Shown: positions 38,499 through 44,617 of the stretch, in pieces
Layout: every line of letters begins with the position of its first letter
How positions within the stretch are numbered: the first letter of the stretch is position 1
Origin: a virus
IMG/VR virus record: IMGVR_UViG_3300044624_000747
Coordinates: 1-44,731 of that record
DNA length: 44,731 bases
Strand: one strand, 5' to 3'
Notes under the pieces: generated by a model
Databases searched by the model: none
Told to the model about the DNA's origin: nothing
Seen by the model: only the letters and a program-made list of their open reading frames with translations
Made by a program: the position numbers and the translations under genes

Positions 38499-39539
38499 AT
38501 GAAGATGTATAAAGATTCATCAATGTGCTTTGATGATATTTTATTAGTACCACAGCACTCTACAGTTTTAAGCCGCCGTGAAGTAGATATTTCTACAACC
38601 ATTGGAACTAATGGTAGAAGCATAAGAATGACCGTTCCAGTTATTGCTGCACCTATGGATACGGTATGTGATGGGAATATGGCATATTCCATAAGAAAGT
38701 TAGGCGGCTTTGGAATTATACATAGGTATATGTCAATAGAATTTATGAGGAGAGAACTTGACTTTATAAGTTCTACAGATGCTGTTTCTTTAGGAGTGGC
38801 AGTTGGCGCTAAGGGAGATTACTTAGAAAGGGCTTTTGTTGCCGTTTCTCACGGTGCCCATTTAATTTTAGTAGATACCGCTAATGGTCATAGTGAATAT
38901 GCAATTAAGGCAGTTAAAGAGATTCGTCGTAATGTCGGAAACAAGGTCCACGTTATGGCTGGAAATGTTTCAACTTATGAAGGATTTATGAGACTTCAGG
39001 ATGCTGGCGCAGACTCTATTAGAGTTGGAATCGGTGGAGGATCTGTATGTACTACTAGAATTGTTAGTGGTCATGGTATGCCAACACTAGCATCTATTTT
39101 AGATGTAAGGTCTAAGATACCGTATGGAGAAGGCGCGTCCCTAGTTGCTGATGGAGGTATCAGAAATAGTGGCGATGCTGTTAAGGCTTTAGCCGCAGGA
39201 GCCGACGCGGTGATGCTTGGAAGTTACCTTGCTGGTACTGATGAGTCTCCTGGAGAAGTGCATGTAAGTGGTGGTAAAAAATATAAAATCTTTAGAGGCA
39301 TGGCTAGCGCAGAAGCACAGTTGAGTGCAATTGGTAATGTTTCAGTTGCAGAAGGAGTAGAGACAACAGTATCTTACAAAGGCACGCTAGAGTACGTCCT
39401 TGAAGAATTTAAGGGTGGCCTAGGTAGTGGACTTTCATATACTGGCGCTCATAATCTAAAAGAATTATATGAAGATTCTATGTTTATCAAAGTAAGTCAG
39501 GCAAGTCTTAGCGAAAGTAGGCCACATGCCCAACATTAA
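38499..39539 (+). CDS. GMP reductase / IMP dehydrogenase family enzyme
   Basis: A 346-aa TIM barrel. Family signs: FDDILLVPQHSTVLSRREVD, VIAAPMDTV, catalytic Cys184 in GGGSVCTTR, ADGGIRNSGDAVKALAAGAD, and IFRGMASAEAQ. It has no CBS pair, and its length equals GMP reductase (E. coli GuaC about 347 aa). After the RGMAS segment the Arg-Tyr dyad of IMP dehydrogenase is not present (LSAIGNVSVAEGVE), which points to GMP reductase chemistry (GMP to IMP). A CBS-less IMP dehydrogenase cannot be excluded. The gene may shift purine pools towards adenine nucleotides. A TATAAG box at about 38486-38491 could be its promoter. Confidence 0.8.
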   Translation: MKMYKDSSMCFDDILLVPQHSTVLSRREVDISTTIGTNGRSIRMTVPVIAAPMDTVCDGNMAYSIRKLGGFGIIHRYMSIEFMRRELDFISSTDAVSLGVAVGAKGDYLERAFVAVSHGAHLILVDTANGHSEYAIKAVKEIRRNVGNKVHVMAGNVSTYEGFMRLQDAGADSIRVGIGGGSVCTTRIVSGHGMPTLASILDVRSKIPYGEGASLVADGGIRNSGDAVKALAAGADAVMLGSYLAGTDESPGEVHVSGGKKYKIFRGMASAEAQLSAIGNVSVAEGVETTVSYKGTLEYVLEEFKGGLGSGLSYTGAHNLKELYEDSMFIKVSQASLSESRPHAQH

Positions 39540-40281: not shown

Positions 40282-40783
40282 ACTAACTAGTTCATTTGAT
40301 CAGATGAATTTAGTTGTAGAAGAATTACTTAAGGGTAAGAATCCTACAGACATTTCTAAATTCTTAGGTATAAAAAGATCTGAGGTATTAGAGCATATAG
40401 ATACCTGGCGAGAGTTGGTGTCTGGAGACTCTAGAATTAGAGAGCGTGCAAAAGAAGCCCTGGCTGGCGCAGATCAGCACTACTCCATGATCATTCAGCG
40501 TGCCTGGGAGACTGTTGATCAGGCAGATGCTAACCAGCAATACAACACTAAGGCAAGTGCCTTAAAAATGATTGCTGATGTAGAGCAAAAGAGAATTGAT
40601 ATGCTCCAAAAGGCGGGTCTGCTAGAGAATAACGAAATGTCTGCACAACTTCTTGAGACAGAAAGAAAGCAAGAAGTTCTAGTTGGTATATTGAAAGAAG
40701 TTACATCTAAATGCGATGTTTGTAGAGTAGAAGTAGCAAAAAGACTTAGTGAAGTTACTGGTAAGGTAGAAGAAGTTGGTTGA
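40268..40783 (+). CDS. small terminase subunit (probable)
   Basis: A 171-aa protein with TTG start 40268 (AGAAGG upstream at 40254-40259). Residues 20-50 (LLKGKNPTDISKFLGIKRSE, VLEHIDTWREL) form a helix-turn-helix for recognising phage DNA. A long helical middle (residues 60-115) is the oligomerisation region, and the end has C-D-V-C-R-V-E-V. It lies directly before, and overlaps by eight bases, the large terminase, the usual arrangement. Confidence 0.75.
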   Translation: MSEIELTSSFDQMNLVVEELLKGKNPTDISKFLGIKRSEVLEHIDTWRELVSGDSRIRERAKEALAGADQHYSMIIQRAWETVDQADANQQYNTKASALKMIADVEQKRIDMLQKAGLLENNEMSAQLLETERKQEVLVGILKEVTSKCDVCRVEVAKRLSEVTGKVEEVG

Positions 40784-42566
40784 TTTTTCTGACTTTCTTG
40801 ACGCACTAGATGGCGATCTTTTTGAAGAAAGTCCAGTAACGATAGAAGAATTTGTTACTGATAATAATTATCTAGATTTACCTCCATTGTCTGATTATCA
40901 ATACCAGGCGATTAGAGCCATGACTCAGGTTTATAAAAAAGAAACACTAAGCAAATGGCTTGGTACAGAAAATGGAGAAAAGAGATGGACGCAGACCTGT
41001 AATGAAGTAATATTACAGATTGGTAAAGGAGGGGGCAAAGACTTTATCTCCACCATTGGTTGTGCGTATGTAGTCCACTTGCTTCTATGTCTTAAAGATC
41101 CAGCAAAGTATTATGGTAAACCACCAGGCGATTCAATTGACATTATTAATATTGCTATCAACGCAGTTCAAGCAAACCGCGTCTTTTTTAAAGGAATTAA
41201 AAGAATCGTTGAGCGATCTCCCTGGTTCCAGGGAAGATATATTCCAAAGGCGAACTCTATCGAATTTGATAAATCCATAACTATTCACTCTGGACACTCA
41301 GAAGCAGAGTCATGGGAAGGCTACAACGTTCTAATAGCGATCCTTGACGAGATATCAGGATTTGAATTAGAAAATACTACTGGTAGACAAAGCCCAAAAA
41401 CATCTTCTGCTATTTATAAAATGTATAAAGGATCGGTAGATTCACGATTCCCGGATTTTGGGAAAGTTGTTATGCTTTCATTCCCAAGATTTAGGAATGA
41501 CTTTATCCAACAAAAATATAATGAAGCGGTAGCAGAAAAAGAAACAGTTATTAGAGCGTACACCTTTAAAATAGATCCAGACCTACCAGATGGTCAAGAA
41601 GAGAATGAATTCTCTATTGAGTGGGAGGAAGATCATATTGCTTCATATACCCTGCCAAGGATGTTTGCACTCAAGAGGCCAACATGGGACTTTAATCCCA
41701 CTAGGAAAATAACAGACTTTACAGTTGCATTCTACAAAGATCCGCTAGACGCCTTTACTAGATTTGCTTGTATGCCTCCAGAAGCAACAGATGCATTCTT
41801 TAAGTCACGGGAGAAGATAGAAATGGCATTTTCTAATCCTAAGATTCTTGTAGATACAGATGGAAGATTTGATAGTTCATTTATCCCACAACAGGATAAA
41901 GAATATTTTGTCCACGTTGACTTAGCGCAAAAACATGACAATTGTGCAGTATCTCTTTCCCATGTAGATTCATGGGTTCAGATGAAGATCGCTGGAACAT
42001 TTACTGAGGCTTCACCCCGTGTAATTGTAGATGCAGTTAGATATTGGCAGCCTACCTCTACACAAAGTGTTGACTTATCTGAGGTAAAAGACTATATTAT
42101 TCAATTGCGTGAGCGCGGTTTTAACTTAAGAATAGTTACGTTTGACAGATGGAATTCTCATGACATGATGCAGCAGTTAAAGGCATATGGCATAAATACA
42201 GAAATTCTTTCTGTTGGAAAGAAGCACTATGAAGACTTTGCTATGTTAATAACTGAAGAAAGAGTTCATGGTCCAAATCTTAAACTATTAATTGATGAAT
42301 TATTACAACTAAGAATTCGCGGAGATAAAGTAGATCACCCTAGAAAGGGAAGTAAGGACTTAGCAGACGCCGTGTGTGGATCAATATATAATGCTATTGC
42401 TAAAACACGACGCGACCAAATGCAAGAAATAGAAGTATATTCCTACGATATGCTTGAATCTGATAGCGATAGAGAGTTACAATTAAGAAGTGGAAGGATA
42501 AGGAATGAAAATCTTATTATGCCACCAAATATATCAAATGCTCTAGACAGCATGGAAATAATATAA
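40776..42566 (+). CDS. terminase large subunit
   Basis: A 596-aa packaging motor with TTG start 40776. The ATPase domain has an unusual Walker A QIGKGGGKDF (residues 81-90) and Walker B VLIAILDEISGF (185-196). The nuclease domain shows VHVDLAQKHDNCAVSLSHV (first Asp near residue 382), RIVTFDRWNSHDMMQ, and KDLADAVCGSIYN with the last Asp. It cuts the concatemer and drives DNA into the capsid. After it comes a tRNA array rather than the portal gene, so the capsid genes lie beyond the window. Confidence 0.95.
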   Translation: MVDFSDFLDALDGDLFEESPVTIEEFVTDNNYLDLPPLSDYQYQAIRAMTQVYKKETLSKWLGTENGEKRWTQTCNEVILQIGKGGGKDFISTIGCAYVVHLLLCLKDPAKYYGKPPGDSIDIINIAINAVQANRVFFKGIKRIVERSPWFQGRYIPKANSIEFDKSITIHSGHSEAESWEGYNVLIAILDEISGFELENTTGRQSPKTSSAIYKMYKGSVDSRFPDFGKVVMLSFPRFRNDFIQQKYNEAVAEKETVIRAYTFKIDPDLPDGQEENEFSIEWEEDHIASYTLPRMFALKRPTWDFNPTRKITDFTVAFYKDPLDAFTRFACMPPEATDAFFKSREKIEMAFSNPKILVDTDGRFDSSFIPQQDKEYFVHVDLAQKHDNCAVSLSHVDSWVQMKIAGTFTEASPRVIVDAVRYWQPTSTQSVDLSEVKDYIIQLRERGFNLRIVTFDRWNSHDMMQQLKAYGINTEILSVGKKHYEDFAMLITEERVHGPNLKLLIDELLQLRIRGDKVDHPRKGSKDLADAVCGSIYNAIAKTRRDQMQEIEVYSYDMLESDSDRELQLRSGRIRNENLIMPPNISNALDSMEII

Positions 42567-42582: not shown

Positions 42583-42656
42583 GGGGCGGTGGCGCAGTCG
42601 GTGAGCGCAGTACTCTTATAAGGTAAAGGTCGTGGGTTCAAGTCCCACCCGCCCTA
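42583..42656 (+). tRNA. tRNA-Ile (anticodon UAU)
   Basis: A 74-nt cloverleaf: acceptor GGGGCGG with CCGCCCT (one G-T pair), D stem GCGC/GCGC, T stem GTGGG/CCCAC with loop TTCAAGT. The anticodon loop at 42615-42621 is CTTATAA, anticodon TAT, reading AUA. The anticodon stem has a G-A mismatch at the top and a T-G pair at the bottom. CCA is not encoded. AUA is common in this AT-rich genome and avoided in highly expressed phage genes. Confidence 0.85.
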
Positions 42657-42658
42657 CG

Positions 42659-42792
42659 GTTGCAGATGGCAATATCTTAGGATGGTGTAGTTACATACAA
42701 ATATCCCGTTATAGCGAGTCTGTGCGAGTTGAGAGCGTTGAATTCGTTTCTAGCGTCTTTCGTGCGTAAGAGGGTTCGTAGCCGTCTGCAAC
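42659..42792 (+). ncRNA. candidate structured RNA between two tRNAs
   Basis: GTTGCAGATGGC (42659-42670) pairs with GCCGTCTGCAAC (42781-42792) through 12 bp with one G-T wobble, enclosing 110 nt. No reading frame of note crosses it. Inside, a stem of GAGCG/CGTTT (with two G-T pairs) around TTGAATT (42638-42644) looks like an anticodon arm, GGTTCG near 42773 looks like a T loop, and GATGGTGTA at 42681 matches the start of the phage tRNA-Gly/Gln body. It is not a normal tRNA. It could be a degenerate or split tRNA or an undescribed phage RNA. Confidence 0.5.
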
Positions 42793-42795
42793 TTA

Positions 42796-42869
42796 CGGGA
42801 TGTGGCGCAGTTTGGTAGCGCACCTGCTTTGGGAGCAGGGGGTCGGAGGTTCAAATCCTCTCATCCCGA
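42796..42869 (+). tRNA. tRNA-Pro (anticodon UGG)
   Basis: A 74-nt cloverleaf with a fully paired acceptor stem (CGGGATG/CATCCCG), D stem GCGC/GCGC, anticodon stem CCTGC/GCAGG with loop TTTGGGA (anticodon TGG), T stem GGAGG/CCTCT with loop TTCAAAT and discriminator A. CCA is not encoded. A protein gene begins two bases after its last base. Confidence 0.95.
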
Positions 42870-42870
42870 C

Positions 42871-43164: not shown

Positions 43165-43182
43165 TAATGTATGGAGGACTCA

Positions 43183-43407
43183 ATGGAAACTGAAGTTCAG
43201 GAAGAAGTAAGAGTTCTTACCAAGATGGATATGTGTGATGCTCCTAAGTGTCCCGCCCAGGCTTGGGTAATAGTAAAGTTTGTTACAGGAGAGTTGTACT
43301 TCTGTGGACACCACTTTGATAAATATGAAGTTAGTATTATTCGTGACGCTTACGATATTGTAGATGAAAGAGAATTTATCAATGCTAAATCAGAATCTTC
43401 TGCTTAG
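43183..43407 (+). CDS. small zinc-binding protein (DUF7455-like)
   Basis: Start taken at ATG 43183, five bases after GGAGG; an in-frame ATG at 43171 contains that ribosome-binding site and is less likely. The product is 74 aa. MCDAPKCPAQAWVIVKFVTG and LYFCGHHFDKYE give C-x4-C ... C-x-H-H. This text matches a small zinc protein family common in actinobacterial genomes (recalled as DUF7455), which supports an actinobacterial host. Function is unknown. Confidence 0.7.
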   Translation: METEVQEEVRVLTKMDMCDAPKCPAQAWVIVKFVTGELYFCGHHFDKYEVSIIRDAYDIVDEREFINAKSESSA

Positions 43408-44500: not shown

Positions 44501-44617
44501 ATGAAAAAAATATGTCACAATTGTAAAGTTGAAAAAGATCTAGAGCAATTTTTATTAGTACCAGGGCAAAGAGTTGGTACTAGAGGAGTTTGCTCTGATT
44601 GCCTCAGGGCCAGATAG
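44501..44617 (+). CDS. 38-aa zinc-ribbon protein set between two tRNAs
   Basis: ATG 44501 is one C after tRNA-Arg and the TAG (44615-44617) lies inside the acceptor and next bases of tRNA-Tyr. The product has C-H-N-C at residues 5-8 and C-S-D-C at 32-35, with F-L-L-V between. This is the Cys4 leader found at the front of some HNH nucleases (C-x2-C...K...F...C-x2-C), here as a free mini-protein. It may be a remnant, a regulator or a true small gene. Confidence 0.6.
   Translation: MKKICHNCKVEKDLEQFLLVPGQRVGTRGVCSDCLRAR

Follow-up and report, generated by a model that had tools for sequence, protein, structure and literature searches.

A phage RNA family encoded among tRNA genes carries complementarity to helix 69 of the host 23S rRNA

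A structured RNA between tRNA-Ile and tRNA-Pro

What occupies the 138-nt gap between tRNA-Ile(UAU) and tRNA-Pro(UGG) in the IMG/VR virus record IMGVR_UViG_3300044624_000747? We analyzed the complete record (44,731 nt; hereafter the window), in which the terminase gene (40776-42566) lies upstream of tRNA-Ile(UAU). A sequence-only reading had described a 12-bp helix closing a non-coding element with tRNA-like fragments inside, and had proposed either a degenerate, intron-bearing or rearranged tRNA or a new RNA of the phage that matures along with the tRNA transcript. The features of the locus are as follows.

42658..42793, + strand: whole RNA element; match to covariance model R1 with 73.1 bits, fold z −3.7
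42583..42657, + strand: tRNA-Ile(UAU), called by ARAGORN and Rfam; 0 nt upstream of the element
42796..42870, + strand: tRNA-Pro(UGG), called by ARAGORN and Rfam; 2 nt downstream of the element
42658..42670, + strand: 5′ arm of the closing helix P1; both-side changes in 12/12 core pairs, G.U 16 versus A.C 2
42781..42793, + strand: 3′ arm of P1; basis as for the 5′ arm
42676..42694, + strand: block A, CTTAGGATGGTGTAGTTAC; complement of 23S rRNA 1910-1930, with target A1919 bulged
42680..42706, + strand: hairpin presenting block A; minimum-energy fold, stem covarying among homologues
42714..42779, + strand: variable second arm; minimum-energy fold, very variable in length and nearly absent in the 77-nt class
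42759..42765, + strand: block B, TTCGTGC in the clade of this phage; complement of 23S rRNA 1964-1970

P1 is formed by positions 42659-42670 (GTTGCAGATGGC) and 42781-42792 (GCCGTCTGCAAC), which pair over 12 bp including one G.U, and is extended by a thirteenth pair, also G.U, between 42658 and 42793. A 142-nt stretch with the element folds at −49.3 kcal/mol, compared to −36.0 ± 3.6 kcal/mol for dinucleotide shuffles (z −3.7; 0/200), and the minimum-energy fold of the free RNA contains a hairpin at 42680..42706 (GGAUG-GUGUA-GUUACA loop). Rfam 15 holds no family for the element, even at E ≤ 10, and both ARAGORN and Rfam call the flanking tRNAs only.

Homologues were gathered as contigs by exact pattern and by terminase similarity, and a covariance model, R1, was built. 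R1 matches 73 places in IMG/VR, corresponding to 53 distinct sequences. Many related phages carry elements of 77-138 nt beside tRNAs, and 46 of the 64 terminase-matched contigs with sufficient downstream DNA have the RNA (45 by script, plus L043 as an R1 match). Among the 53 distinct homologues all 12 P1 pairs are changed on both sides and 99.2% of cells are paired, despite very different arms, e.g., GGCTATATACGT/ACGTATATAGCC, TACGGTAAGCA/TGCTTACCGTA, and GGTTCTGTGGC/GCCACAGAACC. The whole-structure covariation score is 0.648 versus 0.247 ± 0.012 in shuffles and 0.05-0.10 with slid partners, and the hairpin stem covaries as well (UAUA/UAUA, UGUA/UACA, UUUA/UAAA). The closing helix of the sequence-only reading is therefore real, with covariation far above chance, and the compensatory changes that had been named there as the test are strongly positive. 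Because P1 shows 16 G.U wobbles but only 2 A.C mismatches among the homologues, the plus strand is the RNA strand.

The tRNA upstream of the element differs among members (Ile, Leu, Gln, Met, Thr, or Asp). Most members follow a tRNA, in which case they mostly start 0-2 nt after it, and the element usually ends 2-12 nt ahead of the next tRNA. These tRNA-abutting ends suggest that the RNA is released by tRNA processing. Of the earlier proposal, the new phage RNA is thus borne out by a covarying non-Rfam family with fixed tRNA spacing, and its processing with the tRNA transcript appears probable. The element is a genuine structured RNA gene, outside tRNA and outside Rfam 15.

The family core pattern CTTAGGATGNTATAGTTAC matches only once in 257 Gb of bacterial and archaeal genomes, in a Cellulosilyticum MAG; this candidate was rejected as a family member and treated as chance, as there is no model match at the motif. 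A slightly looser, one-nt-short core pattern is found in 116 stretches of IMG/VR. Since the core is essentially absent from the cellular genomes and present in these viral stretches, the family is viral. In one close relative (L016 5789-5891), a natural deletion has removed tRNA-Ile together with the first half of the RNA and left the 3′ half in place.

The most conserved part of the RNA is complementary to helix 69

Inside P1, one motif is nearly invariant, C(C)UUAGGAUG-n-UAUAGUUAC, whereas the remainder of the RNA varies. The GATGGTGTA run, which had been read as tRNA-Gln-like, is part of this conserved motif and shares its complementarity to 23S rRNA, a feature that the sequence-only reading had not mentioned. 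No part of the RNA is more conserved than block A, although many members were fetched via block-A patterns and block A could not vary in those; P1 covariation, the members found by terminase, and block B are unaffected by this bias.

Read as its reverse complement, CUUAGgAUGnUAUAGUUAC corresponds to actinobacterial 23S rRNA 1910-1930 (E. coli numbering), about 1 nt short opposite A1919/C1920. This region comprises helix 69 (H69) and the strand after it and reads GUAACUAUAACGGUCCUAAGG in E. coli and GUAACUAUAACCAUCCUAAGG in Arthrobacter. Block A fits the actinobacterial H69 stem (CCAUC) and not the E. coli stem (CGGUC). Since Streptomyces phages are the nearest relatives in culture when terminases are compared (∼60% identity), the match to the actinobacterial form agrees with prediction, and both would fit an actinobacterial host. 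A CCGTTATAG match to E. coli 1914-1922 in the clade of the phage under study was dropped, because actinobacterial 23S rRNA differs there.

All 31 distinct block-A variants, several of them with insertions, have predicted duplex energies of −24 to −31 kcal/mol on the target, compared to an average of −7.9 kcal/mol for random rRNA windows; the copy at 42676..42694 reaches −29.8 kcal/mol with Arthrobacter 23S rRNA. Each of the 31 leaves A1919/C1920 or a direct neighbour unpaired in the predicted duplex. Mismatched variants include UUUAG (L017) and CUUAG followed by A, C, or U, and the exact complement CTTAGGATGGTTATAGTTAC has no occurrence in IMG/VR.

When the cost of opening both partners is included, with no topological penalty charged, the phage element at 42658..42793 still has a net binding energy of −13.6 kcal/mol (shuffles +4.5 ± 3.0; 0/100). 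Six other RNAs give −10 to −16 kcal/mol, their shuffles averaging about +4, and 0/100 shuffles reach any of the seven. A nested cofold of the P1-enclosed tRNA-cluster class with 23S rRNA showed no gain over shuffles; this method forbids kissing pairs and must break P1 to pair block A, and was replaced by the opening-cost calculation. As block A sits within P1, any 23S pairing of the tRNA-cluster class must be kissing-like. Global duplexfold gave no useful information for whole elements against rRNA, since its duplexes span hundreds of bases. The family carries specific complementarity to 23S rRNA at a fixed site, beyond chance.

A second complementary block adjoins the first target

After removal of block A, the downstream halves of 15 dissimilar RNAs were scanned blindly for complementarity along the full length of 23S and 16S rRNA. 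The stretch 23S 1955-1974, which adjoins the block A target on its downstream side, came out best (0/300 shuffles), and a repetition on Arthrobacter 23S rRNA had the same outcome (0/1000 shuffles). Examples of this block B are GCCATTCGT (L073), CCATT(T)CGTGCA (L176), CCATT-GTGCAG-TTC (L139), and TTCGTGCA (L015). Block B comprises only 7 nt in the clade of the phage under study, is longer in other clades, and does not occur in the 77-nt class.

In these RNAs block A lies 5′ of block B, an order opposite to that of a simple antisense RNA. Joint pairing would therefore cross, and both blocks may not bind together; the two pairings may be alternatives or form a kissing arrangement.

A second RNA class in cultured Streptomyces phages

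A motif search of cultured phages returned a weak-score match in Streptomyces phages, in a stretch without annotation that follows the endolysin gene. This second-class RNA is present in about 45 Streptomyces phage records, e.g., Samisti12 and Blueeyedbeauty.

Samisti12 MF347639.1 ∼24.29-24.40 kb (L215 1447-1556), + strand: unannotated second-class small RNA gene; anti-23S blocks and hairpins

Its sequence, CATTCGTGC-CGCTA-g-CTTAGGATGG-TATAaTTAC, contains both antisense blocks with an intervening CGCTA, in true antisense order and with the H70-H71 stretch skipped. A joined antisense query, drawn up after the first second-class example had already been seen, finds the RNA with E = 9e-6 (Blueeyedbeauty) to 4e-4. 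The gene has a sigma-70-like promoter site (TTGAAA-17-TATCCT) and a GC hairpin followed by UUUU, which in our own reading resembles a terminator, although the scan did not score the hairpin as one. Nested cofold binding of the second class to 23S rRNA amounts to −28.9 versus −6.7 ± 3.1. Rfam holds no family for this RNA (Samisti; RsmY 16.8 bits versus a cut-off of 57), and R1 does not match the second-class Streptomyces phage records, indicating that the two classes have the anti-23S blocks and little else in common. To us, nothing speaks more strongly for 23S rRNA as the target than this second class.

A proposed mode of action on the 50S subunit

Bridge B2a, which contacts the small subunit, has helix 69 as its core. 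Two unrelated RNA classes carry specific complementarity to two adjacent 23S sites, one of them helix 69 with the strand after it, and pairing with 23S rRNA is very probably the basis of the RNA's function. Our best explanation, which we regard as likely, is a phage RNA that pairs with helices 69-71 of the host 23S rRNA and would keep the 50S subunit from entering 70S ribosomes.

Once transcribed, the RNA would probably be cut from the tRNA transcript by processing of its tRNA neighbours. P1, with its 12-13 bp, would hold the hairpin, the loop and flank of which (block A) complement helix 69 and the following strand. Block A would then pair over ∼19-20 bp with 1910-1930, always leaving a kink at A1919/C1920, and the weaker block B would pair with 23S 1962-1974. 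Because pairing at 1910-1930 and 1962-1974 is incompatible with the native folds of H69 and H70, it would in cells probably take place on free or maturing 50S subunits. As H69 forms bridge B2a and the region lies at the subunit interface, the pairing should hold domain IV open. A bound 50S subunit would be stopped from maturing or from joining 30S, and host translation would be lowered or redirected during infection. Since the phage itself needs ribosomes, such inhibition would have to be temporary or confined to newly made 50S subunits.

Displacement of H69 breaks B2a and blocks subunit association, as by ObgE and RRF (PMC4028186), and mutation of helix 69 causes inactivity or a defect in forming 70S (PMC1190176). 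An antisense PNA directed against H69 inhibits E. coli growth, for which PMC7038079 cites Kulik 2017. A block of 50S subunits as the outcome is a plausible but tentative suggestion. It is finely balanced whether antisense RNAs against H69-71, in two unrelated architectures, serve large actinophages as a general control of 50S maturation or subunit joining.

Other explanations for the RNA

The main rival explanation accepts the pairing with 23S H69-71 and has the RNA help the ribosome, as an rRNA chaperone, as a modification guide at A1919/C1920, or as a shield against a nuclease or toxin that cuts in this region. It owes its rank to the overlap between the unpaired A1919/C1920 and the site methylated by TlyA: every variant keeps the gap there or at a direct neighbour, and C1920 is the position of 2′-O-methylation by TlyA, an enzyme important to B. 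subtilis ribosome assembly (PMC12805891). The location among tRNAs, i.e., among translation-supporting genes, would suit a helper as well. We nevertheless find this role doubtful, as Rfam gives no match to a guide-RNA family, including C/D and H/ACA, a protein enzyme already modifies the site in many bacteria, and pairing would take native H69 apart instead of making a site in it accessible.

That the RNA is structured for an unrelated job, e.g., as a protein-binding RNA or a processing spacer, with an incidental 23S complementarity, appears improbable. Covariation of P1 and the hairpin is also seen in many protein-binding RNAs, but two independent blocks match neighbouring 23S sites (0/1000 shuffles), and those blocks are all that the second, unrelated class has in common with this RNA.

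Read from the minus strand, the element contains GUAACUAUA...CCUAAG, like 23S rRNA itself, and could be a sense mimic of helix 69 that acts as a decoy for H69-binding enzymes or drugs. This is very improbable, since the P1 wobbles assign the RNA to the plus strand, the tRNAs lie on that strand, as do the putative promoter and putative terminator hairpin in the Streptomyces class, and the stem of the mimic hairpin does not stay paired in L041, L043, and L057 (by eye).

Bacterial Y RNAs (YrlA) occur near tRNA genes and likewise have a closing stem, and two relatives in culture, Phredrick and Boopy, have genes for Ro-like (TROVE) proteins close to tRNA arrays. Still, there is very little to recommend a YrlA-like RNA that works with a phage Ro60 protein: TROVE was found in 0 of 15 virus records (14 of which match R1; some may not be complete), and both TROVE-bearing relatives are without the RNA. 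Unlike YrlA, the phage RNA thus has no TROVE partner in the virus records searched and no Rfam match, and its core is anti-23S.

A degenerate, split, intron-bearing, or rearranged tRNA can practically be dismissed: the element does lie between tRNAs, and the letters of the GGTTCG and anticodon-arm-like fragments are literally present, but neither ARAGORN nor Rfam calls a tRNA there, even at E ≤ 10, the element stays conserved and covaries even though different phages have different tRNAs upstream of it, and its invariant part has no counterpart in tRNA.

Relation to known systems

A phage RNA that pairs with H69-71 and blocks 50S subunits, the explanation we prefer, would share its proposed outcome, displacement of H69 and breakage of B2a, with the 50S anti-association factors ObgE and RRF (PMC4028186), which are proteins, unlike the phage RNA. 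With the anti-H69 PNA, as described in PMC7038079, it would share the target and the base-pairing principle. The PNA is synthetic, whereas the phage RNA is natural, virus-encoded, and structured, with a kept kink and a second site.

The small stable T4 RNAs C and D (rnaC/species 1 and rnaD/species 2) are likewise non-coding RNAs of 119-139 nt within a phage tRNA cluster, but neither matches R1 at E ≤ 10. We know of no function for either of them. The hairpin loop TCGCTACC of T4 rnaD (L232 554-672, minus strand) is kept in 10 Tevenvirinae and complementary to 23S 1929-1936, maybe by chance; its other complementary 8-mer varies among these phages, and 8-mer matches occur about as often as expected by chance. 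The 8-mers are suggestive, but with one of them not conserved rnaD is at most a candidate anti-23S RNA.

The snoRNAs U3, U8, and U14 and the C/D and H/ACA guides pair with pre-rRNA and act via conserved antisense elements to rRNA. The phage RNA is likewise antisense to rRNA, and differs by its phage/bacterial setting and by having no match to a guide family in Rfam.

Phage proteins acting on ribosomes are known; in the open-access literature we came across no phage RNA reported to base-pair with the functional rRNA of the ribosome. If our explanation is true, RNA-rRNA pairing would join the strategies of phage takeover, and the RNA would be a natural counterpart to anti-helix-69 antisense antibacterials as well as a tool for selective 50S block. 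It also suggests checking other orphan phage RNAs in tRNA clusters, e.g., T4 rnaC and rnaD. As the second class sits in cultured Streptomyces phages that are propagated on laboratory hosts, the idea is testable at once.

Additional observations in the window and in related phages

In the phage under study, the 108-nt gap between tRNA-Arg and tRNA-Tyr looks like a conserved 38-aa CxxC...CxxC microprotein (MKKICHNCKVEKDLEQFLL...CSDCL; 44501-44617) that runs into the tRNA-Tyr gene and is also found in L004, L005, and L013. Related small zinc-finger-like proteins with CDxP/CDQC...CGHH are encoded in the tRNA region at 43171-43407 of this phage and at L044 6296-6544. An ORF at 38499-39539 of the same phage resembles a GuaB-type IMP dehydrogenase (by eye).

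The Ro60-like TROVE proteins beside tRNA arrays are located at L205 14421-16037 (Streptomyces phage Phredrick) and L206 825-2438 (Gordonia phage Boopy). Phredrick further contains an unannotated 184-nt gap between two tRNA-Pro genes (L205 10621-10804), which has no R1 or Rfam match and might hold another RNA.
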